Shown here piece after piece: positions 7,701 through 64,000 of a DNA stretch of 64,000 bases (positions are counted from its first letter, which is position 1; each line of letters starts with the position of its first letter). The position numbers were made by a program, and so were the translations under genes. Location of the stretch: contig NC_135247.1 in the NCBI RefSeq assembly GCF_947623445.1, positions 3,288,501-3,352,500 of the forward strand. Reading direction: 5' to 3'. Below the pieces are notes generated by a model, which was not told the DNA's origin, searched no databases, and worked only from the letters and a program-made list of their open reading frames with translations. The stretch is from Clavelina lepadiformis. Taxonomy: Eukaryota; Chordata; Ascidiacea; Aplousobranchia; Clavelinidae.

Positions 7701-8053
7701 AATATCTTGTTGCCGAAAACACGGTTACATATCAGGTGTATGCTGCTTGCAGTTGATTAGTTCACAGCTGACATTAGCTTAATCATTTCTGAAGAATAAA
7801 CCCCAGCTATCCGTGTCAAAGTACTCTTGACAAGAAAGGAGTAACAAAGCCATTATAAAATTTTGATGCTTATGTGTTGAGCAAAATGACGTGATTTACT
7901 ATTTCATGTCTAGCCTGACAGGTTGTTGTATAATTTCGCTCTAATAAAAAACTAGTACGAATGCAGCTTATTTTTTACTTTTGTTTAAAAATTTATCAGA
8001 ATTTATTTTGAAATTTACTTAATTTAATTTTGAAATGAAGTGAAAATGAGTAC
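4768..8053. other. Long gene-poor interval
   Basis: No ORF here encodes anything I recognise and no convincing exon chain was found on either strand. It separates the GTPase pair (minus) from the DUF294 gene (plus) and probably holds both promoters. A short CCCCCC run at 5871-5876 is the only compositional oddity. Confidence 0.5.
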
Positions 8054-8128
8054 GTGAAGTATAGATACATAGGATCTTTTGTCATTGTTTGCTGCAGATA
8101 TAGTTTATCGAACATAACTCTGTCGATA

Positions 8129-11059
8129 ATGAATCTTGATGATCACAAATATGTTAAATATACATTTTCTCAAACGGAAATGGATCTTATCAGTCAGATA
8201 AGAGAGCTGTGTGATAATAAAGGGAAAGAAATTAAACCAACTGAAACTGCAAAATTATTTCATCAGTTGGGTTTGCTATACATGAAAAAGAAAGATAAAC
8301 GCAGTCTCATTCGCAGTGCTGCTTTACTAAAAGCAGCAATCATTAGAAAACCCGATAATGTTGATGAGATTGCGACAGATCTGAAAAGTCTTCACCAACT
8401 GATACTTGCAGAAAGCTCGGCCATAGAAAGGGATGCAGATTTCAGTCTGATTTCAAATGAGATTCGCAAAAGTGTTGATGAAATGAGGGAATATGTGAAA
8501 GAGGAACTTGAAGGTGTGGTGTCCTTGCCCAATGATCTTGATGATGATGATGAAATACATAAACTGCAGGAACAAAAGATGCAGCAAGTTATACACATTC
8601 AGGGTAAAGTTAGTGAGAAATTTACTGCCATCATGGATGACGTAACGAAAAATTGCATAAATATACTTGGTAAAACACCTTGTAAGTACGCTGTAGTTGG
8701 AATCGGTTCTCTTGCTAAAAAAGAGATTACTCCTTATTCTGACTTTGAAAGTGTTTTAGTGCTTGAAGAAGGTATTCAGAATAGCAGCAAATATGAATCC
8801 ATTTTAGAATACTTCCGATGGCTGGCGGTGATATCTCAAGTGGTAGTGATTGGTCTGGGTGAAACTAAAATACGAAACGTGGCGATTCCTGGATTAAATC
8901 ACCTCGACAGTGAAGACGGTGATTGGTTTGTTGATGACTGCACACCTGCTGGCATTTCTTGCGAAGGCATGCTGCCTTATGCTTGCAAAAATCCATTGGG
9001 TAGACTTCCTACCAAAACGAAGCCATGGGAAACAGAACTAATTAAGCCTGTCAAAGAAATGGTTAATTACCTTGACTCAGAAATAGATATCAAAGATAAT
9101 TACAATCTTGCTGACATTTTAACTAGGAGTTGTTTAGTCAGTGGATGCAAAGATTTGTACAGCTCATATCATGTCGAAGTTCAAAACAAGTTGGAATTTC
9201 AAAGGAAAAATTCAGCATTTTTCTGGGAACAGTTAAATAAGCAAATTGAAAATGATAAAAAAAATATCCAACCGATTTCCAATTCATTTACATTTATGCG
9301 TTGGTTTAGGGGTGGTGAATTTGATGTAAAACGAGCCCTTTATCGTTGCACAACCATCTTTGTTTCTGCAGCTGGTTCATATCACGGCATCGATTCCGCA
9401 TCAAGTATAGAAATTGTTGATCAGCTGCATGTGAAAGGATTGCTCTCGGCAAAAGAGCTACACGCTCTGAAATGCTCCATTGCTTTTGCCTGTGAAATGC
9501 GCTTGAGAATATACACGAAGTATGGAAAACAATTTGATGTTGTCAGTTCTGTGGATGTGAAAAGTGTAATTGTACGCGCTGGAATTCGAAGCTTGTTTGA
9601 TTATTTCATGACGATAAATTCCTTGCAAAAAGTTGATTTTCAAAATTGCCCGCTCTTTTTAAACGTTGAGCAACTTGAGCTTATTCCTCTCACTTTTCTA
9701 AACGTGGTGTCTTTTACTTCGGGCATAGAGAAAGAGACCATTCCATTTTTAAAATCGAAGTTGCGTAAGATTTCAGGAACAATGGCCACACAAATATCAG
9801 CAGAAATTGATTTTACTGCACAACTTGCTCAGCTCGATACACTTACTATTCTTGGCAAATGTCTGCACGATTCGAAATCTTTTGAGGAGGCGCTTGCTGA
9901 ATTTGAAGCTTGTGTTCGCAGTACTGTTTATGAAGACAAGTTTGATTCTAATGCTTATGCTGAGCAATTGAAAACAAAATTTAACCTTTTGTATTTTTAT
10001 TGTGGTATGAGCACCGAGATGATTGAGTTATTTGAACTTTTTAACATTGAGGCGTTTATAAATGCATTTGATGTTCTTAAGCTCCCTATCCAAAGCCAAT
10101 GGAAATACATTATATTTGGAAAGGCCCTATTCGACCTTCGTGAGAAATACATGAAAAAATATCAAAGTTTAGACAACAATCCGGAGCAACTCACTTCAGC
10201 GTCAGAAAAACTGGTGCGTCGTGGAATGGAGCAGGAAAAATACTTTGGTGTACTGAGATTTCTTGCAAACCGCGTTTTAGGAATGGTATTAGATGGCGCT
10301 TCTTACGCTGAAAAATATGGAATGTCCGCTGCAGATATTCGTTATTTCTCTGGTGTATGCTTCTTTAATCTTTCTCGTTACGATGAAGCGTCATATTATT
10401 TCAAAAAATCGCTCGAAGATGCATTCGACTTCCCAGCACACAAAAACTGTCTTTATTACCTAAGCCAGTGTTTCCGAGAACTTGGTAAAGAAGATGAAGC
10501 AAATTATTATCAGAAAAACTACGATGATTTCGAGCAGTATTGCCAAAGTGAAGCAAACATGCTGCAGGAATCAACAAAGTCACAATATTCGTTTATCGCA
10601 CTTCTTAAAAATATTTTCAAAGATCTGCTGACAGATGCTGGGCAAGGTTCACATGTTAATAGCATCGAGGATGAAAGTGATGAATCATCATCAAATGGTG
10701 ATGATGATAATGATGGAGTTTTATTTAATATAATCTTTCAAGACATCGCAAAAGATCTACAGAATTTTAATGATGTCTTTACAGAATCCTTTCCGGCCTT
10801 ATTTTCTTTGATCAAGGCTGCATTTCCACTTTTAGATTCTTTCAACAACGAAAAGTTGGAAACTTTGATTTTGTCAGAAATTGATGATGATAGTACGCCA
10901 GCCCAGCAGATGAGGGTGGTCAAAAATTATTTTCAAAAATCTTTTCCAGCTTTATTTCCCTTTCTTGAGATAGGTTTTACATTAGTTGCTTCCTTGCCCG
11001 ATAGTTCTTCATCTTCTTCGTCTTGGGAAGATGAATTTGAAAGTGATGAACTTGATTAA
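8129..11059 (+). CDS. DUF294-type nucleotidyltransferase-like protein with TPR region
   Basis: One uninterrupted ORF. The longest reading starts at 8054, but a TTTGCTGCAG acceptor ends at 8098, so I take the next ATG (8129) as the start, giving 976 residues. The acceptor may serve cis-splicing or spliced-leader trans-splicing, which ascidians use. The N-terminal 70 residues are helical and TPR-like. A nucleotidyltransferase-like motif GIGSLAKKEITPYSDFE (about residue 190) has the GS...SD pattern of DUF294/GlnD-like folds; the second acidic residue is E in place of the usual D. A helical DUF294-C-like stretch follows, then a TPR-like block near 10320-10530 and a tail with two related SFPALF repeats, ending in Ser runs and acidic residues. 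Substrate and partners are unknown; catalytic competence is not certain. The 3' end was duplicated to 15462-15775. Confidence 0.75.
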   Translation: MNLDDHKYVKYTFSQTEMDLISQIRELCDNKGKEIKPTETAKLFHQLGLLYMKKKDKRSLIRSAALLKAAIIRKPDNVDEIATDLKSLHQLILAESSAIERDADFSLISNEIRKSVDEMREYVKEELEGVVSLPNDLDDDDEIHKLQEQKMQQVIHIQGKVSEKFTAIMDDVTKNCINILGKTPCKYAVVGIGSLAKKEITPYSDFESVLVLEEGIQNSSKYESILEYFRWLAVISQVVVIGLGETKIRNVAIPGLNHLDSEDGDWFVDDCTPAGISCEGMLPYACKNPLGRLPTKTKPWETELIKPVKEMVNYLDSEIDIKDNYNLADILTRSCLVSGCKDLYSSYHVEVQNKLEFQRKNSAFFWEQLNKQIENDKKNIQPISNSFTFMRWFRGGEFDVKRALYRCTTIFVSAAGSYHGIDSASSIEIVDQLHVKGLLSAKELHALKCSIAFACEMRLRIYTKYGKQFDVVSSVDVKSVIVRAGIRSLFDYFMTINSLQKVDFQNCPLFLNVEQLELIPLTFLNVVSFTSGIEKETIPFLKSKLRKISGTMATQISAEIDFTAQLAQLDTLTILGKCLHDSKSFEEALAEFEACVRSTVYEDKFDSNAYAEQLKTKFNLLYFYCGMSTEMIELFELFNIEAFINAFDVLKLPIQSQWKYIIFGKALFDLREKYMKKYQSLDNNPEQLTSASEKLVRRGMEQEKYFGVLRFLANRVLGMVLDGASYAEKYGMSAADIRYFSGVCFFNLSRYDEASYYFKKSLEDAFDFPAHKNCLYYLSQCFRELGKEDEANYYQKNYDDFEQYCQSEANMLQESTKSQYSFIALLKNIFKDLLTDAGQGSHVNSIEDESDESSSNGDDDNDGVLFNIIFQDIAKDLQNFNDVFTESFPALFSLIKAAFPLLDSFNNEKLETLILSEIDDDSTPAQQMRVVKNYFQKSFPALFPFLEIGFTLVASLPDSSSSSSSWEDEFESDELD

Positions 11060-12686: not shown

Positions 12687-13603
12687 TCATTGGCATCGAG
12701 TGTTTATCCTGGTACACACCACCCCTTCACATTCCAATCTCTGTACATACAAAATAATTTATTATAAATTTATCATAAAATCGTATTTTTGCATCTAGTA
12801 ACAGAAGTAATGCTAAGATCCTACGAAATAACCTCAAGCTTTTTTGCGTATAAATTCTGTATATAAGCAGATTTAGATGATTCTTAAGCATGGCTAAAAA
12901 TACAAATAAGTACAATTTATACCGTTCACCTTTACGTGCTATTAGAATATTCCTTTACAAGTTTGAGGTCTTTTATATCGTTTTTATTAGCTTAAACTAT
13001 TTTTAAAGAATTTTTCTAAATGCAAGGGTACAGGTTATTGGGTTAATTGCAGCTCACCAATATCAGCTTGCCGTCTTCGTATGTCCAGTCTTGGACGGCT
13101 TTACGATCGTCCCAAAGTTGAATCTGATGAAGCTTGTTGTTTCCTTCCCATACAGTGGTGGTCTGTACAAGAAGAGAAGGTTTCAATTAATATCTTTTAT
13201 ATACGTAGTGTGCTTTTACGGACCTTTTGTCACGGTTTTCACCTTCACTTTTTGGCCATCCATCCTCTGTTCTTCAATTTCTTCACCGATGGGGAAAATT
13301 CTATTGGTGGACTTGAACGTACTTTGTGTGTTGATCCGCACCTTGTTGCCCCCTTCGTCGGTGATTTCTGAAGTGGATGAGGCCAAGGCACCCATCTTTC
13401 GCAAAGCAACGTTCACCCCTGCAATGATGCAGTGTAGTTAAACCAATACTTGTATATGTTGCTGAAACGTCTAATTATATAGAATACGTTTTACTTTAGA
13501 CGGATTTGTCTAAAAGTGAGTTCAGCTTACCAATTTTCTTCATATATTCGTCAAAGTTTTCATTTTTTTCTAATTTCCATTTACCAAATAAAGGGGAGGT
13601 CAT
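12687..13603 (-). CDS. Fatty-acid-binding protein A (recombinant copy)
   Basis: Four exons, 13531-13603, 13243-13418, 13058-13162 and 12687-12740 (73, 176, 105 and 54 nt), encode 135 residues. This is the classic four-exon FABP structure. The start MTSPLFGKWKLEKNENFDEY fits the FABP signature G-x-W-x-L-x4-N-F-D-x-Y; the end reads GVVCTRINTRCQ. The protein should be a small cytosolic beta-barrel carrying fatty acids or related hydrophobic ligands. The exon 2 donor GTGAAA was chosen because it keeps phase and matches the junction in copy C; reading through would break the frame. Exons 3-4, intron 2 and the 3' flank match copy B, whereas intron 1, exon 1 and the 5' flank match copy C, so it is a hybrid gene. 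The usual R106 and Y128 of the carboxylate triad are W and N; R126 is kept. Confidence 0.9.
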
Positions 13604-16670: not shown

Positions 16671-17576
16671 TTAGCATCGACTGTGTATCCTTGTACACAC
16701 CACCCCTTCACATTCCAATCTCTGTACATACAAAAGGTTTGATTGGGAATTTATCATAAAATCGTATTTTTGCATCTAGTAACAGACGTAATGCTAAGAC
16801 CCTATGAAATAACTTCAAGCTTTTTTGCTTATAAATCCTGTATATAAGCAGATTTAGATGATTCTTAAGCATGGCTAAAAATGCAAATAAGTACAATTTA
16901 TACCGTTCACATTTACGTGCTATTAAAATATTCCTTTACAAGTTTGAGGTCTTTTATATCGTTTTTATTAGCTTAAACTATTTTTAAAGAATTTTGCTAA
17001 GTGAAAGGGTACAGGTTATTGGGTTGCAACTCACCAATATCAGTTTGCCGTCTTCATATATCCAGTCCTGGATGGCTTTACGATCGTCCCAAAGTTGAAT
17101 CTGATGAAGCTTGTTGTTTCCTTCCCATACAGTGGTGGTCTGTACAAGAAGAGAAGGTTTCAATTAATATCGTTTATATACGTAGTGTGCTTTTACAGAC
17201 CTTTTGTCACGGTTTTCACCTTCACTTTTTGGCCATCCATCCTCTGTTCGTCAATTTCTTCACCGATGGGGAAAAGTATATTGGCAGACTTGAATGTACT
17301 TTGTGTGTTGATCCGCACCTTGTTGCCCCCTTCGTCGGTGATTTCTGAAGTGGATGAGACCATAGCACCCACCTTGCGCAAGGCAATGTTAACTCCTGTC
17401 GTGATGCATTGTAGAGTTAACTCAACATCAGCATTCGTTGCTGAAACCCTGGCATTTACTTTTATGTAGATACAATTTTAACAAAAAATTTGATCAAGCT
17501 TACCAACTTTTTTCATGTATTCATCGAAGTTTTCACTTTTTTCTAATTTCCATTTACCAAATAAAGGGGAGGCCAT
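16671..17576 (-). CDS. Fatty-acid-binding protein B
   Basis: Four exons at 17504-17576, 17220-17395, 17035-17139 and 16671-16721 (73, 176, 105, 51 nt) give 134 residues. The start MASPLFGKWKLEKSENFDEY matches the FABP signature and the end is GVVCTRIHSRC. The exon sizes and intron phases are those of the metazoan FABP family. It is expected to be an intracellular lipid carrier. The position equal to R106 is W and the one equal to Y128 is H, while R126 in CTR is kept, so ligand carboxylate contact may differ from heart-type FABPs. Intron 1 and the 5' flank differ strongly from copies A and C, so B is the older-diverged paralogue at its 5' side, whereas intron 2 and the 3' side are close to A. 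Confidence 0.92.
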
Positions 17577-41734: not shown

Positions 41735-42475
41735 TCAGGTTCGAGGAGCGCCTGCTGCGGGTATTGTTTCGGCAGAGTTCGTTGTCGCTTTGTAACTCTC
41801 TTTGGTAGGATGTGTTAATTCTTTCTCGTCTAGGTCCGATTGCTCTGTGGTACTTGCAGGAGATTCTTTTACATCTGGATTGTCGGTGTCTGACTTTGAT
41901 CGATAAGAGCATTCTCTGTACTTATGTCCTTGTTCCGTGCAGAGAGAGCAGGTTTGGATTTGGCCGTCGTAGCTCACGGCACATCCCATCTTTCTCAAGT
42001 ATAAGTACGATGGTAGTTGATGGTCCTTCATCTGTCCTTTTGTTACTTTATATATTCTTCTACCATCTTTTATGCCGTGTTTGTCAAAACCTAGCTGGGC
42101 TGGGCCTCGGATACCGAACTTTGCAAAAATTTTGTCAAGGTGTTTTTGGGGATAGTCGATAGGCACCCATCGTATTGTAAGGTTCGTTCTGTCGTCGCCG
42201 TGAGCAGTCGCATGCTTCACTTCCGGCCTCATTTCAAGTATGTCTGCAATCCGTATAGCGTTCTTCTTACTGTCTAAAGTGATGTTGATAATATTTCCTG
42301 GTTTCTGGATAATGCCCTCGATAATACTTAACGGTATCGCAGTTTCTCTCAGCAATGAGTAGACTTTCTTTGAGCATTTGAAATGTTACCTCCCGGTGAT
42401 TGCTGTAGTCTATGGCGAGGTCTTTGTTCCATTGTCTTTTAACTTTGTCAGCATACGTGATGGGTTTTGCCATTT
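41735..42475 (-). mobile_element. Retroelement ORF1/gag-like fossil with zinc knuckle
   Basis: Minus-strand coding potential shows a start-like MAKPITYADKVKRQW, a central basic region and a CCHC zinc knuckle CSLCTEQGHKYREC followed by a Ser/Thr/Glu-rich end. This is the layout of LINE ORF1 or retrotransposon gag proteins. No reverse transcriptase is attached on either side. The coding sequence is no longer continuous, so it is a broken fossil; whether LINE or LTR cannot be settled here. Confidence 0.65.
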
Positions 42476-44463
42476 TCACATATGTTTCTTTTAGCCTTAA
42501 AACTTCGTCTAGTTTCTCTATAAACTCCGGACATGATCTGTTTTTGCTTTTGCGGATAAAAACTACGAAAGCATCACTATGCAGTGCTTGCACAACGAAG
42601 CATTCCAGCACAAAAAAAGGAGCATCTGATATTGTGGCTGCCAGCTGGTAGGCAAATAAATGCATTTAATACAATCATGAATCAGACACAGCCTATAGGC
42701 TTTCATTTTATTTTTCGTCTTCAATGCCGGGGACAAATAATGTGCTGGCGCCGGGGTGGCAAATATAACAGTAGCCGAAATGACAATAATTTCCATAAAT
42801 TGGACGGACAAATACGACAAGGCCTTGAAGACTCATAAAGTCATAAACTTTATATCATAGGTAATGTATCCATTCGTGCACTTTTGCACATACTTGAACC
42901 ATGGGAAAAATGGATTGGATTTTCCTCCAAGCGACTTACATTACATTTCCTTCTTCATTTTCCTATGACCTACCACGACGTGCACTTAAGTAACTCAAAG
43001 TTCACCATAATGAAATACCCAAATACCCTTCGTAAATATAGTTCGAGAAAGCGAAGCATGTTTTTGTTTTGCCCAATGCAGTAAGATGTTTCGCGATGTG
43101 AAAATATGTTTTGGGATGTTACAATATATTATTTGTAACGGTTCGTAGTGCCATCAAAATATTTTCAACGACCAACGGTTTAAGAAAATGTATTGCAGTA
43201 GGCAAAACTATTGTTTGAACAATGAAAATATTTTGTTGTTTTGTAAAAAAATAGATGAACCGCAAAATTGTTTTAGGCCTTTAAAATGCAATTTTCGGTT
43301 TCTTTGAAATACTTTTTCAATGAAAAAGAATTTAGGCAAGCCGAAGATTTACCGTACTTCGAAAATATATTCGAAATATATTTGTTGAGGCAATGAAATT
43401 TTTGGCGATGTGAAAATATATTTCACAAAATATGGGATGTTACAAAATATTATTTTTAGCGGTTCCTATTGCTATTAAAATATTTTCCACGACCAAACTT
43501 TTTTTTGTAAAAGTAATGCAAATATTTTAATGAAAAATGTGATAGATGTAAGAAATATATTTGGAATAACAAAATATTTACAAAAAGGAAAAGTATCTTT
43601 TGATTGATGAAACTATTTTGTAGTATTTTAAATAAAAGTAGATGAACCGCAAAATTATTTAATTTATAATTGTCGGTTTAATTAGAAAATTTTGCCCAAA
43701 AATAATTTGGTGAAATGAAGGAGCCACCGTTAAACCCAGTATCAACTGTTTTATTGTTTGTTGTAGCCTATAACTCAGCAGACATATCAAAAAAGTCCAC
43801 ATTAAGATCTAGATTTTATCCTTTTAGCCAATGCAATATTTGCCATATCCACTACTAAATATTCTTCATGATTCTATAAAACGTTTCATTAGACCCAATT
43901 TAACGTCAACTTTCTAATTTTGGTGGATGTTTTGTTATAGTTTCTTTGGATCCAGAGAAGTTAATGTTTTGTGGTTTAATGGAAGTTATTGGTGTAAATT
44001 ACTTATTACCCTCAGATATAAAAAAATACATTTAATTTACAAATAGGCCTATGTACGAAAATTATTGTTAAACGTTAGTTGGTACCAAAATGTGGTTCCT
44101 AACAAATCTATTTCAATAAATGTTGAGTGCTGTTTAAGCTTATAGTAAATTAAAATACCAGGATATAGGATAGCACGGTTGGGTTAACTTTCAATTCCTC
44201 TACACAAGCTTTTGCAAGCATCAGCTTCCTTAATCAGGTGTACTGAGTGATCAGTAAATCTTGAGTTAGTGATTCTAAATATGTGACATATGGCAAGTTC
44301 GATGGCACCAAGGTACAAGTGTTTGAACGCAGTATTTTTTGAACTGTCGAGACAAAGAATAGAATAAAACAGTCAAAAACCAAATATCTCTTACAATCTT
44401 TAAGTAATATATCAAGTGATCTTGCTCTATTTCCATACAAATCTATTGCCTCACATAGTAGTA
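42476..44463. other. Gene-free, repeat-bearing interval
   Basis: Contains the direct repeat at 43084-43690 and otherwise AT-rich DNA with no recognised gene. Confidence 0.5.
43084..43690. repeat. Diverged ~290-bp direct repeat
   Basis: Copies at about 43084-43310 and 43400-43690 share GCGATGTGAAAATATRTTT, GGGATGTTAC, CGACCAA and TAGATGAACCGCAAAATT in the same order. Many AATATTTT motifs fall within both. Confidence 0.7.
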
Positions 44464-44709
44464 TTATAATTCATCCCTTATCTTGTTTAAGAGGGTATAT
44501 CTGTGTTCACTCGGTTTCATTTGAACAAAAATAGACTTGATAGTTGAGCTGGGTAACTCTTCCATTTTTTGGCTGGTCGATTTTACTTCCTTTGAACTCT
44601 TGGTCGGCACTTCTGACAGTATCATTTTCTTGGCATTTGTTGTCTCAGATAAGGGTTTGCCTGGATTTATTTTCTTTGCATCGATCTTTTCGGTTATTCT
44701 AGTTGGTGT
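44464..44709 (-). CDS. Second ERp44-type terminal exon ending in RDEL
   Basis: After an acceptor (AACATTTACAG at 44710-44720) an open frame of 82 codons runs to a TAA at 44464-44466. The first 55 residues are Lys/Ser/Thr-rich; the end reads KPSEHRYTLLNKIRDEL. The true last exon of ERp44, 0.9 kb upstream at 45623-45781, ends KPSEHRYTVIRNRDEL. Both exons start in phase 0, so either could be joined to the exon ending at 45937. It is therefore an alternative terminal exon or the remnant of an ERp44 copy. The intact frame, splice site and ER-retrieval signal argue for use. No other ERp44-like exons were seen around it. Confidence 0.7.
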   Translation of the reverse strand, partial: TPTRITEKIDAKKINPGKPLSETTNAKKMILSEVPTKSSKEVKSTSQKMEELPSSTIKSIFVQMKPSEHRYTLLNKIRDEL

Positions 44710-45622
44710 CTGTAAATGTTGTAAAATTAGATACAGAAGTTATACCTATCAACCCTAAACATTTAAACAATTTAAAACACCAGTTCTATACAATATACAT
44801 TGCATACAATAGAATAGGTCCACAATAAACACGCACAAGCAGTAAGAACGAGTTTCACAACTTCATGTTTATAGTTATCACATGTGGTAATGAGATTGAA
44901 CGTATATAGCTTACATTCTTTAATTCAGCTCGATTGTTACCATCAGTAACTCTTGGTGATGGTACATGATATCCAATTAACTGTGAATGTAATTGCAGCG
45001 ATGTTATAAGCAACATGATAAAAATCCAAAGCCGTTGTTCTTAACATACAACACAATGTTTGCCTTTATTTTTTTTGATTAAGGCGAGTCATTTTTATTG
45101 CATAAATAATAATGAATTAATCCATGCTTGGTGATGTTTAGTTCCTCATTAGCCTAACTTCGACTGCGGCATCTCTTCAACCATATAAACAAGCATGCAC
45201 AAGATGCAATTGAGGCAAGGAACAAATTTTTATTTTCGGGATCGGAAAAAACATAATTATTGACTCTACATCAGCACGCAGTTTCATTAGGCAGATCAAC
45301 GCGATGTCCTAAAAAACTTATGCAAAAACATTCTAATTGGACTACAACAAACTAACACATAGCACATATACATAAATATCTTCAACTGTTCTTTCTATAC
45401 TGTAGTACTTTACTTGCAACACGTTGTTACAATGTGACAATGGTTAACTGATAATCTCCTATCAAAAAAGACAAATGCCACAGCTTCAACTAAAACCCAG
45501 TTAAAAAAACAAGAATCTTTTTTTGTGTTCATGTCATCATTCACCGAGTATTAAAATGTTTATCTTCATATTCAGAATTTGCATAAATATAAAGTTTTTT
45601 TTTGCTCATTGTTGATGTTCTG
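44710..45622. other. ERp44 3' UTR / intron to alternative exon
   Basis: AT-rich; a minus-strand AATAAA-type signal (TTTTTATTT on plus) lies near 45221-45229, which could end the upstream isoform. Confidence 0.4.
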
Positions 45623-48155
45623 TTAGAGCTCATCTCTATTCCTTATAACAGTGTATCTATGTTCGGAGGGCTTGAGCGCTTTAAATATCGACTCTGGCGG
45701 TGATGTTTCCACCGGTTTACTTTGTTCGCTTTTTGCTTCTTGCTTTGCTTGCCCAGTTGTAGCACTCGGCTTGCCAGCAGCCTTTTGTAAAAAAAAACAT
45801 AACCATGCGTCGCCAAGAGAAAGATACACCTTCATAACATCCACTAAAGTTAATGTAAGCAAGCAAGATATGAAGGGTTTTGCATAGGAACAGACACCAA
45901 CAACATTGCACATCTGAAAATAAACCTTTAATTTACCTTGGAAGGGGCAGGGGGTGCTTTAGACTGAACAGCAGGAGGGGCCTTCGTAGCCGGGTCAGGT
46001 CCGTGGTGAAATTCTCGATGGAGTTTGCCGGAGTGAAGATCGAGAATGAATTGTTTTAACTTTCCAGGATTGCTGTTATATATAAAAGCCAACTGGATTA
46101 TCGGGGCATTTTTAACATTAAACAATTAAACCATTACGTAAAAATGACAAATAGAGGAGTGCAAAAAATGAAACCTACCTTATTTCATCAAAGTTGGGAA
46201 ACATGTACATATGTTTGAAGGAATCAATAGCCACTAGAGGGCAGTCTCTTACTGTTTTTCCCAAGTGGTGCAGGGGGTGAGAAAAAGTTTCACAGTCAGC
46301 CATCAAGAAATTGACACTGCCTGCAGCAATTTGTACGTAAGTTATCAACAAAGTATTAATTTTTGACGAGATAACTAACACTTCAAATAATCCTTCATAT
46401 CACTAGTATGCCAACTGAACATGTTGATGTCAATAAAGTCAGACTGTTGACACAAAATTGAAGCCTTACTCTTGAAATTGACAAGTCGGCTGACTTCTTT
46501 TTTGTAGATTTCCAAAGATTCTGTGTCCTCTTTCTTGTGGAATAAAATTAAAAACGGCAAACCTTCTTCAGTGAGTTCCTCTCCATTAGCAAACGTTATT
46601 TCCCGAACCTAGCAGTCAAGTTACAGTACATATTGTAAAACAAGCCATTGCTTTGTCTTGCTGAAAAACTTTAGTAAACAGTTATTTCACCAGTGGTACG
46701 CATTTATCCTGCGACCATGCTGTCAACAAATCTTTGTTGGTGAGTGATCCAAGATAAACCATTTCTGGGTTTGATTCCTGAAACAAAGAAAGATTTTATT
46801 CCAGCACATCGAGTGAACAGCATTGCAACAGTGCAGGAAAAATGAATAACTTACTCCGATTGGCTTGAAAATAATATTATCTCCTGTAGTTCTTTCAGGC
46901 TGTGATACTTCACTAAAAAAATAAAATGACGGCAAGCTGTTCACATCTTCTGTGAAAACTGTGCATGATAAAAAAAATTTGATGTGCAACTTACCCAAAG
47001 CCAGCATAGAAAAAACAGTCGTCTTTCAAAATCTTTGCAACTTTGCTGTATGTTTCAAACTCTGGTGATTCTTTACTTGTAAAGTATCCAATGATGTTAC
47101 GCTTGACCCGCTAGAGGTTGCAAGTTTTAAATGCATTGCCTAACATTCAATTTAAAGCTACAGTAGTTCTATCAATACCATATATACTAGTTCAAGGGCA
47201 CTGTGTGATGCGAAAACAGAAAACCTTGGCTTACCGGTAACTCGTATATTGTATCCAAAGATGTGAATTCTTGTACAGGATCCCTCAGTTGTTCTCGTAC
47301 AAAATCTCTCAAACTTTCAGCAGACCTTTTCCCTCGATATTCTCGCTTGACAAGCTGACCAGCTCGAAAGAGTTTCATGGTGGGATATTTGTTGACATGA
47401 AAACGACTTGCAATGCCAGCTGTGAACAAATTAGTTGCGCTCGAATAAAAATGACTTTACAAGCAGAAATATCTTTTTTAACTTTGTGTACTGTCATGGT
47501 AAAGTTTTTTAAACATTTAATTACACTTTTGAGATGTTAGATCTTGATAGATCAGAAAATAATACACTTACTTTCCCTGTCACAGTCAACTCTACCGAAA
47601 ACCACTTGGCCTGCCGTTGGATATTCTTTAGCCACTAAGTCTGATGCGTCTTTAAACACCGGAGTCAACATCTGACTGAAGCGACACCAGTCAGCGTAAA
47701 AATTCACAAAAACTAATTCGTTGTTTTCTGGATTAAAAAAGTGCAAAACATTTTTCTAAAGTAATCACTTACTGTGCTCACTCCTCATATTAACAAGAGC
47801 GGTGTTCGGGAGTAACATTGTGATAAAAGTTGAGCACTGGTTAATTTCAATTACATATATATGTTTATTATATATATGATACATAAGTAAGCCACAACAT
47901 ACTTAAAATAGTGTCAATATTAGAAGACTCCAGCTTAATTACATCGCAGGTGCAGTGAAAAGCGAACATCTGAAAATGGAAAAAACAATTATAAAAATTC
48001 AATACATCATGACTCCATAAAGACTCTTCAAACAAATTTTAGGCATTTTTACAATAGCAGTATCTTATTATTATACAATAAATTGTTATAAAAGGTAAAA
48101 TAGCACTAACCAGACATGCTGCTGATATTACTATACGCTTCTTTACAAATCTCAT
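45623..48155 (-). CDS. erp44: ERp44 (thioredoxin-family ER chaperone)
   Basis: Eleven exons sum to 1290 nt (429 residues): 48111-48155, 47903-47969, 47572-47727, 47235-47419, 46995-47110, 46855-46912, 46691-46777, 46470-46608, 46179-46320, 45937-46072, 45623-45781. A signal peptide (MRFVKKRIVISAACLMFAF) is split by intron 1. The redox site FYADWCRFSQML carries the single active Cys of ERp44 (CRFS, Cys52). Later segments such as EELTEEGLPFLILFHKKED and FDLHSGKLHREFHHGPDP-like sequence follow the vertebrate protein closely, and the end is RNRDEL, an ER-retrieval signal. ERp44 cycles between Golgi and ER and retains client proteins (Ero1, immunoglobulins) through mixed disulfides. The segment between the third thioredoxin domain and tail is longer than in human (429 versus 406 residues) and Pro/Ala/Lys-rich. 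See the alternative terminal exon at 44464. Confidence 0.95.
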
Positions 48156-49547
48156 TTCGCACATTCACCCAAACCTTAAATTGAAACCAAAGCTGAAATG
48201 TAAATGTCTTTATTCAAAATCAGTCTGCAAAGTGAATAAAATGAAAAAAGAAACTTGTTACTAGCAACAATGACCTGAGGATACTTTTATATTTAATAAA
48301 TGATAATGAAATATGATTGTATGAAAACCAGTTGTGTGAAGCCGGTTATTTTGAAGTATGGCAATAACTATCAATTATCTCCAGGTTGGCCGTGCAATCA
48401 ACCACATTGAAGAGGAAGTGCAGGAAATAGTTTAAATAAATGCTGCGTGCACAGAGATAAAACAATGGGATCTAATAAACGACAACATTGTCTGCTAGAG
48501 AGCGCTAATTAGAATTTTGATAAAATGGTGAATTGATGAAAAATAAGTACTGTAAGTAATATGAATACTGAATAGGCAGTATAAATGCCTTAACCAAAAC
48601 GAATACATGAAGAGGGTTTTCTGCACAGAATAAATGATATTAATATTTTTAATACAGTAGAATTTGGTTGATACATTCACATCGGGCCAACAGATTTTTG
48701 ATATAACAAGCGGAGGTTGTAGAAACCAATTTTAAATACCAATGCTAAACAATGTCACTAAACAACCTCCTGGGGTAAAAACTGTATTTATTAGAATAAG
48801 AAATCAATACGAATAATAAATAAAGTGGATAATCAATAAGAAAACTGTATTGTATTGCTTCAGCCATCTGCTTTAACTGCAATGACTGCTGTTCCAACAA
48901 ACTCTGTTTGAATGAATAGGTTATAGTTTCATCACAAAATTCCATTTACTCATAGCCGCTAAAAATACACCATTATTTTTACACAGTAAAGAACAAATTG
49001 ACCTGCACGAGAAACCGAAAGTTGATATATAAAGTGGCGGCTGGATGTATTAATCAAGGTTTTTCTGATGGGAAAAGTATAGGAAAATTCCGACCCAGCA
49101 ATTTCGATGTAATAAGCTTTTGGTTTTGTTAACCGGTATCTACTGAATTTTAACCAGAACATGTCCATTTTATGTATAAGGGCATGAGGCATACAAAATC
49201 TACACTTATGAAATAGTGAATAACAGACACTTACCCTATTTACTACATTAACTGACAACACAAATATCTGATCATCTAATATAATATAGAAAAAGGTAAA
49301 GTGCTTAAGCGTATGAGATAAGGACCGCAGATTATTTGAAATATTTCATAGTAACAGCATAAAACAAACACAAATAGAATATAGAGTAGCATGCAATATT
49401 TTCTCGTTTACTTGGTAGTCAAAGAACATTATTGTGCATAACAATAAAAGCAAAAAGGTTTAATCTCATGAGTGCAATTAACACATGTGTACAAATTAGC
49501 AATGGAAATAGGAATGAATGTCATATGTGTTACATATTTGTAATAAC
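48156..49547. other. Intergenic, no gene seen
   Basis: AT-rich DNA between the ERp44 start and the TTL-family stop. Short ORFs match nothing. It may include a 3' exon of the ligase if the GG|GTAGGT donor at its end is used. Confidence 0.45.
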
Positions 49548-51086
49548 CTACCCACACCACATGCTATCTTTCTTGCACATGCCCCTGTACCATAAATGCA
49601 GTAGCTTGTCTTTTTCAGACAAACCAGCTATATCCATAACATCTTTCTGAGGGTTTAGTACTTTAGGGAAAATTTTTACAGAGCGCATTCGATTGAGCTG
49701 CTCCATATAAGCATATTTGAGCATTTCTTTAGTAGATTTTGACAGACAGGGGTTGCAAAGCTGGCATCGATCTGCGGAACAATCTGAGCAATCTTGGCAA
49801 ATGTCATCATACACCTGAATGTCCCTGTCTGTGGCGTGAAAACGGTCGATGGTGTTGCGGCGTTTTGCTGCACTGACTACTCCAGATAAACTAAGTGTAT
49901 TGAACACCACCTGCTCGTACAAGATGGCATTATCTTCAAAATGTGCGCTGGAAAGATTGGGAGACATGTTGACCTCCATCAAGTAAATGTGCAGTTGAGA
50001 ATCAACCACAAAATCAAAACGTACCATTTCAAAAAATGAATCTGAACCGTATGGGTAACGTGACAATGATCGTAGCATATCTGACCTTTTTTCCAGTGTC
50101 ATGTCAGCCACAGCTTCGTACAATTCTTTTCGGAATTTTTCCTCGTCATGACCTTGTTTTCTCAAGTAACTCAGCAGTGTATCTTTAAAGGAAAACTTCA
50201 ATTTTGTGAATGTGTCTTTTAACGATGGCATCTGCCACACCGGAGTGTAGTCATCTCCAACAACATATTTATTTGGGTTATGCACGTCAAGCGGCAGATA
50301 AGATTGGGGGCAAAATCGAATCAGCCAATCTCCGTCAAAAACATAAACACGTAGTGGATCAATAGATGTTATGATTGTGTATAAGCCAATGTCAAACTTC
50401 TTTCCATCTATTAAAAACGGATCTTTAACAAACTCTTGAACAAAAGAGTCAGAAGCATCAAGATCCAGATCTTTGATCGATTTAATCGTTATCCCACGAT
50501 GCTGGTTGCTTTTCTGAACCCACAGTTTGTCCTGATGCGCATTTGCATATTCAAGAAACTTGTTCTTTTCTTGTGGCAAATTAAAAGCTGTCGGAATGTA
50601 CTTAAACTTTGATGTTGCTAGAAAAACTTTGCTGGTTAAGTAACCAGAACCAGGAAAATGATTAACCAGTTGATGGGGCTTCAAAGCGGATGGTGACAAC
50701 TTGCTCGAAAAAGGATATTCGTATGACCACATCACATCCCATGTTCCAGATTTTCCATCCCACCTCTCGTAACCAATTAATTCAAAGATATTACGAACAT
50801 GTTTGAGATAAGCACCATCAGCATTGTTTGCTGATAACCAATATTTAAGACGTGGCTTCTCCTGCAATGCGCTAGCTTTACTGTTAAATGTATCAGATGA
50901 TACCTTTAAGGCTGTTTGTGTAAGCTGTATATGCTTCTGTTGTAGCACTTTCAACTCTGATATTCTTGAGAAAAGAAGCCCAATTACCCCACAAATTGCC
51001 AAAAACAATATTGACTGAACCTTCATCGTAGAGATCATTCTTCGAAAACTATTTTTAAGCCAGCGCTCCTTACTTACATTAATCAT
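49548..51086 (-). CDS. Membrane-anchored tubulin-tyrosine-ligase-like protein (TTLL-15-type)
   Basis: One open exon. The ORF opens at 51164, but an acceptor-like CCATTGCAG lies at about 51139-51147, so I start at the ATG 51084-51086, giving 512 residues. A hydrophobic segment (SILFLAICGVIGLLF, residues about 24-38) near the N terminus looks like a signal anchor. The ATP-grasp TTL domain shows WVQKSNQHRGITIK, VQEFVKDPFLIDGKKFDIG and MEVNMSPNLS, which carry the nucleotide- and metal-binding residues. TTL-family enzymes ligate amino acids to protein tails; the TTLL-15-like branch has an N-terminal membrane segment. A six-Cys cluster CQDCSDCSADRCQLCNPC is unusual for a cytosolic ligase. The frame ends WCG-stop, but GG|GTAGGT there is also a possible donor, so a further exon cannot be excluded. 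Confidence 0.85.
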   Translation of the reverse strand: MINVSKERWLKNSFRRMISTMKVQSILFLAICGVIGLLFSRISELKVLQQKHIQLTQTALKVSSDTFNSKASALQEKPRLKYWLSANNADGAYLKHVRNIFELIGYERWDGKSGTWDVMWSYEYPFSSKLSPSALKPHQLVNHFPGSGYLTSKVFLATSKFKYIPTAFNLPQEKNKFLEYANAHQDKLWVQKSNQHRGITIKSIKDLDLDASDSFVQEFVKDPFLIDGKKFDIGLYTIITSIDPLRVYVFDGDWLIRFCPQSYLPLDVHNPNKYVVGDDYTPVWQMPSLKDTFTKLKFSFKDTLLSYLRKQGHDEEKFRKELYEAVADMTLEKRSDMLRSLSRYPYGSDSFFEMVRFDFVVDSQLHIYLMEVNMSPNLSSAHFEDNAILYEQVVFNTLSLSGVVSAAKRRNTIDRFHATDRDIQVYDDICQDCSDCSADRCQLCNPCLSKSTKEMLKYAYMEQLNRMRSVKIFPKVLNPQKDVMDIAGLSEKDKLLHLWYRGMCKKDSMWCG

Positions 51087-51576
51087 TTCAATACATTTGA
51101 AATTTGAAAGTATAGCAATAAACCTATGGTGTATCTGCAACTGCAATGGTATAAAAACAGACAAAGGTTAAGGCCGTATTAATGAGCATAACAGGAAACT
51201 AATGGGAGCTTTTGATTACACATTATGTGTGCAAAGACAAAAAACATGGTGTAATGGTGTGCAATGAAGCCTCAAATTGTTGTTAATTTATTGTATTAGG
51301 CCAAGGCTATAGGCCTATAATCGTTTCAAATGCGTCTTAACAACTTCAGAACTTTGCTTGATTTGTTTATTATAAATAGGCCTGAACATGTAAAAGTTCA
51401 AACGTACAGGCTGATATATCTCATTCCGACGTGCATGTGTGTGCTAGCCTAGTATCGTTACATTTTTCATTAATTATCCCTATAATGAGATTGATTGAAA
51501 AGTATTTTAACTGATGCTAGGCTTACATATCGACAAGGTCTGAAGGTTATAATTTCTATTGTATTCTTAATTTGAT

Positions 51577-61599: not shown

Positions 61600-62769
61600 T
61601 TATGTTTTCTTCCTTAAATTCTCAAAGCGCCTGGAGAGATCATCGAAATCAATATCATCACTGGATGCATTTGATTGATTACTTGGGCCAGGTGGAATAC
61701 TGCTCCCCGGAAAGCTAGTAGGAACAGAAGGAAGATTCGGAAGTCCAGGTGAGGAACTCCTTGGAGCTGCTACTGGAGGATGAATGCTTGAGGCAGGAGA
61801 TAAGGATTCGTTGTAACTTGGAAGTTTGGGAGACACTCCTGACGGATCTTTAGACAAGTCAACTTTTCCAGGAGAACCAGCAGGAGGAGTTAAAGGTAAT
61901 GTTGGAGGCTGTTTTTGTGGCTGGTTAAAAGATCCTTGTCCAGTAACAACTGGATTAGGGTCAGCAGGGGAATATGGTGGCAAATTATTACTTGGCCCTG
62001 GCCCAACTGCAACTTCGTAGACATTTTCAGCTGCTGTAGGAGCTGACGCTGCAGCAGCATAGCTAAATGAAGGAATCTGACCTCCTCCTCCACCACCACC
62101 GCTGCTGCCTCCACCAAATGAACCTCCAGGGCCTCCTGGTGGGCCGGTTGGCAAGTCTTTGTTGAAATCCATAAAATCTGTATCCACATTAACAGCATCC
62201 TGACGAAGTTCCTCTTCCATAACACGAGGATCAGGTGTGAAGTCTACATCTGCTGTCTTGCAGATCTCAACTAAGTAGCTTTCTACAAGGATCTTCTTTG
62301 GAGGAGATAAATCAAGCTTGTTAATAACTCTTTCACAAACAGTACCAACCTGGTTAGATCGGCAAGCCTCCACATACTTTTTACCATAGTATGCTCCGAT
62401 AAGATCATGGACCACTTTCAGTTCCTGACAATATTGCTGCAACCTTGGTGTGGCCCAAATTAAAGTGGATATAGGAGTTTTAAGACTTTCATCCAATACT
62501 TTTGACTGTTTCATCAATCCTACTCTTCCAGATAGAAGATCAGCATACATTTCCACCAATTCCATTGCTTCCACTAAGTAGTCTTCACGAATGATGTGTT
62601 CTACGCGAACTCTTGCGCGATCAACTTTTGCATTTTTCACATATTCAGCAATTTCCGGTCGAGCTCTCATGGCCTGGTCGGTTTTCTTCTTTTCAATTAA
62701 TTTCAAACGAGTCACAACAAGACCCAGATTGACTTTCAGCTTCTGTTCATTAAAGCGGGGACCAAACAT
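61600..62769 (-). CDS. ist1: IST1 homologue (ESCRT-III)
   Basis: A single open exon of 389 codons. Residues 1 to about 185 form the IST1 helical core (MFGPRFNEQKLKVNLGLVV, then RARVRVEHIIREDYLVEA and ELLSGRV-like sequence). A Gly/Pro/Ser-rich linker of about 185 residues follows, with a GGSSGGGGGGG run. The C terminus DIDFDDLSRRFENLRKKT is the MIT-interacting motif that binds VPS4, LIP5 and spastin-type MIT domains. IST1 acts in ESCRT-III at endosomes and in abscission. The start MFGPRF is the conserved family start, so an upstream coding exon is not needed. An intronless coding region contrasts with the multi-exon neighbours and could reflect retroposition or intron loss; no poly-A tract or target duplication was seen. 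Confidence 0.95.
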   Translation of the reverse strand: MFGPRFNEQKLKVNLGLVVTRLKLIEKKKTDQAMRARPEIAEYVKNAKVDRARVRVEHIIREDYLVEAMELVEMYADLLSGRVGLMKQSKVLDESLKTPISTLIWATPRLQQYCQELKVVHDLIGAYYGKKYVEACRSNQVGTVCERVINKLDLSPPKKILVESYLVEICKTADVDFTPDPRVMEEELRQDAVNVDTDFMDFNKDLPTGPPGGPGGSFGGGSSGGGGGGGQIPSFSYAAAASAPTAAENVYEVAVGPGPSNNLPPYSPADPNPVVTGQGSFNQPQKQPPTLPLTPPAGSPGKVDLSKDPSGVSPKLPSYNESLSPASSIHPPVAAPRSSSPGLPNLPSVPTSFPGSSIPPGPSNQSNASSDDIDFDDLSRRFENLRKKT

Positions 62770-64000
62770 ATTTGCAAATTAATGAATATTAACCTAAACT
62801 GCAATGAAATAAGTAAGCAATTAATTAATACAAATCATAATTCATAAATGTAGATATCATTCATAAAAAAGTTAGGGTGTCTGAAAGAAACATATACAGT
62901 ATTACTGTCATACCATGGCTGTCACTTTGCATAGCTTGTAATTCGGTTTTTATTTTGTGATAAAAAAAACCTAGCCTAGCCTAGCCTAAGAATTTTAAAA
63001 CAACAATAACTTTTCCTCAAATTCCTTCGATTGGAATTGTATACATTACATCTATAAAATTCACTTTGCAACTTTTTTAAATCTCAATCTTTTAACGCTT
63101 ACTTTGCAATAAAAGACAAAAAAGTAAAATTAAGTCTCAGAATTGCAGGGCACTATTTTAAATTGGTATAGATACAAATATGTTTTCAGAGATCTCTTAA
63201 ACTTTTGCACTCCCACTTGAAGGTCTGAATGGGAAGGAGTTATGAGGTATTAATAGAAAGAAATTATGATGTATTCCTCAATAGTTGATCCTGATGTGGG
63301 TATGATAATCTCCTACTGGAAATTTTGCTTTCAATGCCCTAAGAAATGTGCCAATAACTGTAATATCAAACTATAATAATACTACGCCACGCCAACATAA
63401 TACTTATAATAACCTACGATAGAATATAAGGCAAACTTTCTCTGGATTTCTCCGGCTCATCATACAAATTTTCTAGTAGGGTGATAATCTTTATCCTCAA
63501 ACTGAGGAAAGTCTTTGCACGACTAAAACCAGCGATAATTCTTCCATAGTTTCTTTAAGCAACAAAACTAGTAATTTTGGTCAGAGTAATTAAGTTACCG
63601 AAATTTTTGCATGGGAAATGCATTCCTTGTATTTAACTAAATTTTAACAGTTTACAGTCAGGCTAGACCTTATTTTGCCACCTAACATTCACAAGTCTGC
63701 TTTTAATTTCCAAGGTAGTCTCAGTAAATTGCATGAGGAAAGAGTTATGTTAGCTTAGAAAGCAACATAATTGAACGTGCGCATACAATAAGCTATTTTG
63801 GATTTTCCAAATTGCTAGGCTATGTAGATGTAACTTGCGGAAAAAAGAATGCTTTTCATACGCCTCCCTTTAGCTTAGCACCATGCCACTATCCTGCCAT
63901 CGGACCATATATAATATTAATTATAACCTAATGCTCGCAGTTAGCTTGCATTGCCTTTGTCAAATCACCAAAAAGTAGGAACTGTACTTTACTGATTTAG
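62770..64000. other. Upstream of IST1, no gene seen
   Basis: Probable IST1 promoter region. A short CCTAG array (CTAGCCTAGCCTAGCCTA) lies at 62971-62988 and a MITE relative at 63200-63305. Confidence 0.5.
63200..63305. mobile_element. Short relative of the CTTTTGCACTCCCA MITE
   Basis: ACTTTTGCACTCCCACTTGA followed by sequence matching the right end of 34719-35063 (GAGTTAYGAGGTA, AAATTATGA, ATTCCTCAATA, GATCCTG). The right inverted end is decayed. Confidence 0.6.

Follow-up and report, generated by a model that had tools for sequence, protein, structure and literature searches.

A putative second terminal exon of ERp44 in the ascidian Clavelina lepadiformis, predicted to exchange the linker and the RDEL tail

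The C-terminal tail of ERp44 is the moving part that decides client binding and the exposure of the return signal, and the human protein has a single tail, encoded by a single terminal exon. In the window examined here (the whole stretch of 64 kb of Clavelina lepadiformis DNA that was analyzed), the ERp44 gene is followed by a further open stretch resembling its last exon, which raises the question of whether this ascidian has two tails at its disposal and, if so, what the exchange would mean for the protein. From the evidence below, we consider it probable (about 0.8) that the downstream stretch, exon B, serves ERp44 as a functional alternative terminal exon and arose as a tandem duplicate of the last exon, exon A, in the ascidian line.

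The minus strand of the window carries a complete 11-exon ERp44 gene. Exons 1 to 10, common to both predicted products, occupy 45937..48164 (exons 1 to 5 at 48164-48111, 47969-47903, 47727-47572, 47419-47235, and 47110-46995; exons 6 to 10 at 46912-46855, 46777-46691, 46608-46470, 46320-46179, and 46072-45937), with GT-AG introns and frames that join without a stop. The donor at 45937 can be followed by either terminal exon, both in phase 0. Exon A (45781-45623, minus) encodes the ordinary tail, 52 amino acids and a stop, and ends ETSPPESIFKALKPSEHRYTVIRNRDEL. Exon B (44709-44464, minus) lies downstream, with a spacing of 913 nt between the two, and encodes 81 amino acids and a stop, ending EELPSSTIKSIFVQMKPSEHRYTLLNKIRDEL. 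They are thus homologous last exons in tandem and in the same phase, differing in length by 29 codons. The preliminary description of this DNA had placed an 82-codon open exon here, starting in the same phase after a usable acceptor and preserving the RDEL tail. The exon is indeed found at 44709-44464, although it has 81 amino acids, the figure of 82 having included the stop; exons 1 to 10 sum to 1140 nt, or 380 codons, so that B joins in phase 0, and RDEL precedes the stop in A and B alike.

The identity of the gene was clear from comparison with human ERp44 (TXNDC4; PDB 5gu6, 5xwm, and 2r2j), with which it shares the thioredoxin-like domains, CRFS, HREFHHGPDP, and a tail running from RYT to RDEL. 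In a phmmer search, the product matched 5xwm at an E value of 5e-156 and 2r2j at 2e-155, with a query in which residue 93 was wrong. The a, b, and b' thioredoxin-like domains matched the human protein over their whole length (residues 23-368 versus 5xwm), and the ordinary tail matched the human structure in a second stretch of the same search; the ungapped alignment of the exon A tail to the human tail scored 116. The CRFS active-site motif, named for ERp44 in passages of PMC13384778, is present in exon 3 (FYADWCRFSQML). The histidine cluster (DSFKHMY and HREFHH, aligning to human DSFRHMY and HREFHH) is encoded before exons A and B; the zinc-binding HREFHH is encoded in exon 10 and is therefore part of both predicted isoforms.

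When the ERp44 product was searched against the window with tblastn, it recovered exons 1 to 11 and, in addition, a match of residues 383-432 at 44661-44467, within exon B (40% identity over 65 columns, E value of 4e-4), which was the sole further match below an E value of 1. This bears out the earlier claim that no other ERp44 exon is duplicated. Tail B against tail A gave an E value of 7e-6 in the window search and an alignment score of 87, compared with 28.5 ± 5.4 (maximum 54) for 2,000 shuffles of B. Against the 209-Mb assembly at E ≤ 10, and among the best candidates scored, tail B found only itself (1e-44) and tail A (0.018), and no third tail was found. A chance match of the tails was excluded by the shuffle test together with the tblastn and assembly searches. 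Several residues are common to A and B and absent from human ERp44 (I in SIF, K in KPSE, and H in SEH), suggesting that the two tails go back to a single ascidian one. In Pfam, no family was found for tail A or tail B, and Rfam gave 0 matches in the window at gathering scores. A PDB search with tail B alone gave five rows at E ≤ 1, in which human ERp44 (0.43) stood below ubiquitin rows at 0.10 and 0.11 that look chance-like.

Other origins of a second copy were also considered. The ERp44 product without its signal peptide (406 amino acids, from residue 27) gave 15 matches in the assembly at E ≤ 1 among the best candidates scored. Nine of these were exon pieces at the ERp44 locus and one was exon B (0.29); the remaining five, on other contigs and with 28 to 45% identity, did not extend beyond the first thioredoxin-like domain (query residues 1-100), as would be expected for other thioredoxin-like proteins. 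A second ERp44 gene or retrocopy was rejected, no further exon being present in the window or among the assembly candidates scored. So was an assembly or haplotype duplicate: at the DNA level, the two copies have no clear similarity to each other, and among the candidates scored in the assembly, tail B is present a single time. Apart from the overlap of the stretches themselves, no DNA match between the surroundings of A and B was better than an E value of 0.35, and the repeat finder gave only short pairs, none of them joining the two tails. With no better DNA match around the two exons, only the coding meaning has been kept. A recent duplication was ruled out by synonymous saturation.

That saturation was seen in 20 tail codons compared without gaps, 16 of them from SIF to two residues past RYT, plus those of RDEL. 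They were picked because they can be aligned, leaving out the linker and the RN/NKI residues before RDEL. Across them, 25 of 60 bases differ between A and B (7, 3, and 15 at codon positions 1, 2, and 3), with a saturated pS of 1.135 and a pN of 0.231. Nevertheless, 15 of the 20 residues are equal, 11 of these 15 being written with different codons, including Ser as TCC/AGT and Leu as CTC/TTA. Neutral simulations (random substitution along one branch with a transition weight of 2, run to an equal number of differences) kept about 6 residues on average, with maxima of 12 starting from A and 13 starting from B in 50,000 runs each, and 15 kept residues were reached in none of the 100,000. The choice of stretch favors likeness, yet in our judgement it cannot yield such a pattern without constraint. 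The comparison indicates that both tails have been under constraint for a long time, because neutral change must have hit both lines. The age of the duplication is bounded only by synonymous saturation.

Signals for the processing of both exons were searched in the sequence. The acceptor of B (CTAATTTTACAACATTTACAG) scored 4.7 bits, ranking 4th among the 93 AGs between 45900 and 44301, and that of A scored 5.6 bits, ranking 3rd; two AGs outscore them, one of them intronic (45843) and the other within exon B itself (44612). The scoring matrix, for which the remaining nine acceptors of the gene were used, is a weak one, with leave-one-out scores from -6.8 to 6.0. A candidate poly(A) signal for the exon A transcript, AATAAA, is located 389 nt past the stop (45229..45234, minus), with further AATAAA hexamers on the same strand at 45094-45099 and 45065-45070. 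After exon B, the candidates are weak (43750..44036, minus) and comprise ATTAAA from 44036 and from 43980 and AATAAA from 43755. No AATAAA follows soon after B, the nearest being ca. 700 nt past the stop and the nearest ATTAAA ca. 430 nt; these distant or variant hexamers are the point at which the interpretation is least satisfactory. Taken together, the sequence gives good support to a second terminal exon, maintained by selection, with which the linker and tail would be exchanged and RDEL retained, an exchange that the preliminary description had proposed. The splicing of B to 45937, giving a second isoform, is likely. The different gating that the same description attributed to the second isoform is plausible, by analogy with the human structures.

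At neutral pH, Cys29 of human ERp44 is covered by the tail, which acid and zinc open (PMC6363758, PMC13384778). Pro353 sits between His299, His328, and His332 in the metal-free protein, keeping these histidines separated while the tail is closed, and its displacement accompanies tail opening; on zinc binding, Pro353 moves out and the tail swings away, exposing Cys29 and RDEL (PMC6363758, PMC13384778). No Pro353 mutant is described in the passages of PMC6363758 on human ERp44 gating. Counting on the sequence to obtain the human numbering (HREFHH as 328-333 and the first Pro of SSPPES as 353), exon A reads SPPES at this position, as in human, while exon B reads STIKS in the ungapped alignment and has a Pro three residues upstream; given this upstream Pro, the apparent loss of the Pro353 wedge in B depends on that alignment being ungapped. 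From HREFHH to the Pro353 position there are 19 residues in human (His333 to Pro353), 49 in A, and 77 in B, 28 more than in A. The B exon carries 16 basic and 10 acidic residues (9 and 7 in A), with 13 lysines (6 in A). Both tails have a His in KPSEHRYT where the human counterpart is Tyr, a possible extra acid sensor inside the tail. As judged from the alignment, the histidines that sense pH and zinc belong to the portion common to both predicted isoforms, outside the swapped exon, so that the swap would alter the target of the sensor and not the sensor. The gate of B would be expected to be looser without zinc, because it has no Pro-Pro at the Pro353 position and a longer linker.

These features suggest a possible sequence of events. 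After a tandem duplication of the ERp44 last exon in the ascidian line gave rise to B, cleavage of the pre-mRNA after A would produce ERp44-A, whereas skipping of A, joining of exon 10 to B, and use of a later poly(A) site would produce ERp44-B. The two proteins would share the thioredoxin-like domains, CRFS, and the histidine cluster, and both might return via the KDEL receptor. In ERp44-B, the 28 additional linker residues, the lysine-rich linker, and the missing Pro-Pro may leave the tail looser over the active site without zinc, and the protein could then be open, bind clients, and expose its RDEL under a broader span of pH and zinc conditions than ERp44-A does.

Against a working exon B, it could be argued that it is the decaying remnant of a tandem terminal-exon duplication, its frame open by chance and the exon unused, or, in a variant of this view, that its use was lost very recently. 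The absence of a close AATAAA and a linker barely alignable to that of A fit a relic, but the 15 of 20 residues kept under saturated synonymous change speak against it, as do the intact acceptor and phase and the frame itself. The 81 open codons have a P of about 0.001 in the local composition, and the codon score is coding-like, with log-odds of +9.7 bits in frame (+13.2 for the linker alone). By comparison, the 891 overlapping pieces of noncoding sequence, which doubled as the noncoding training set, gave -30 ± 11.4 with a maximum of -0.2, A and B being outside the training. The score separates frames poorly: A reaches 14.0 in its own frame but 9.9 in one of the others, and two further frames of B give 0.4 and 1.4. 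On this balance, we regard a relic as unlikely. Still less credible is that B belongs to a different transcript, be it a short gene of its own or an mRNA that begins at B and receives the spliced leader by trans-splicing, an idea favored by the many spliced-leader copies in the genome and by the 913 nt that separate the two exons. Alone, B could start only at an internal Met (MILSEV, MEELPS, or MKPSEH), and by eye nothing resembling a signal peptide follows any of them, so the RDEL would not reach the ER lumen; moreover, the longest minus-strand open stretch lying wholly between A and B has 61 codons.

An alternative terminal exon with equivalent function is another matter. Here B would be used, but the tails would be alike, and the point would be a different 3' untranslated region or expression control instead of gating. 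Such a view leaves the exon part of our explanation intact and is a serious rival to its gating part, and we consider it a real possibility, if short of an even chance. KPSEHRYT and RDEL are identical in A and B, and the choice of a terminal exon usually accompanies a poly(A) choice (PMC3228551); on the other hand, the Pro-Pro position, the linker length, and the number of lysines differ between the tails. Returning to a working exon B with its own gating, the fullest version would be an ascidian splice switch between a zinc- and pH-locked tail A, patrolling the Golgi, and a loosely tethered tail B lacking the Pro353 wedge, more constitutively client-binding and returned to the ER. We put this forward tentatively and as somewhat doubtful.

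We know of no earlier splice-controlled gate of ERp44, and nothing on ERp44 tail isoforms was found in the open-licence literature, judged at the level of listings. Alternative homologous terminal exons are in themselves already known, so it is ERp44 that is the unusual target. Human capping protein beta has homologous alternative 3'-terminal exons, which most probably reflect multiple poly(A) sites (PMC3228551), and Drosophila pip has homologous alternative terminal exons as well (PMC9013439). In both, as here, homologous last exons stand side by side, and there one is used per transcript. By comparison, the predicted swap in ERp44 would affect the regulatory flap and the retrieval tail of an ER chaperone. 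Replacement of one homologous exon by another is also the pattern of the homologous exon substitution isoforms described, for a human set, in PMC4465641, according to which such swaps are of ancient origin and overrepresented among the isoforms detected at the protein level. If the reading is true, the two predicted ERp44 proteins differ only in the flap covering the active site, and a second natural tail kept by selection would be a ready-made experiment on the residues and tether length that set the pH and zinc response.

Some further features of the genome and the window can be mentioned. The 16-mer ATTCTATTTGAATAAG, the same as the C. intestinalis spliced leader (PMC7986045), has 836 + 647 = 1483 copies in the 209-Mb assembly, with 0 + 0 for the reversed control; among the places listed, an array lies on contig C6 at 12139467-12206206, with a spacing of mostly 745 bases. 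By this leader, the genome is of the Ciona type among ascidians. Two further markers of identity gave no signal: COX1 had 0 matches, and for glycosyl hydrolase family 6, which in tunicates is fused to cellulose synthase, 0 of 4 candidates reached E ≤ 0.001, in a test whose controls were likewise silent. Two similar open stretches on the plus strand, ca. 4 kb apart (12991-13438 and 17001-17466), are probably repeat copies, the latter without a Pfam match at E ≤ 0.1. On the minus strand, a 216-amino-acid open reading frame (41735-42385), without a Pfam match, has a CCHC-like knuckle (CSLCTEQGHKYREC) and by eye reads like a retroelement frame. A plus-strand open stretch of 1,006 amino acids (8039-11056) has weak TPR and DUF294 nucleotidyltransferase matches, all below the curated cutoffs. 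Clearer Pfam assignments were obtained for two minus-strand open stretches, one of 539 amino acids (49548-51167) belonging to the tubulin-tyrosine ligase family (E value of 3e-48) and lying 1.4 kb upstream of the similarly oriented ERp44 gene, and one of 392 amino acids (61600-62778) with an Ist1 domain (E value of 2e-49).
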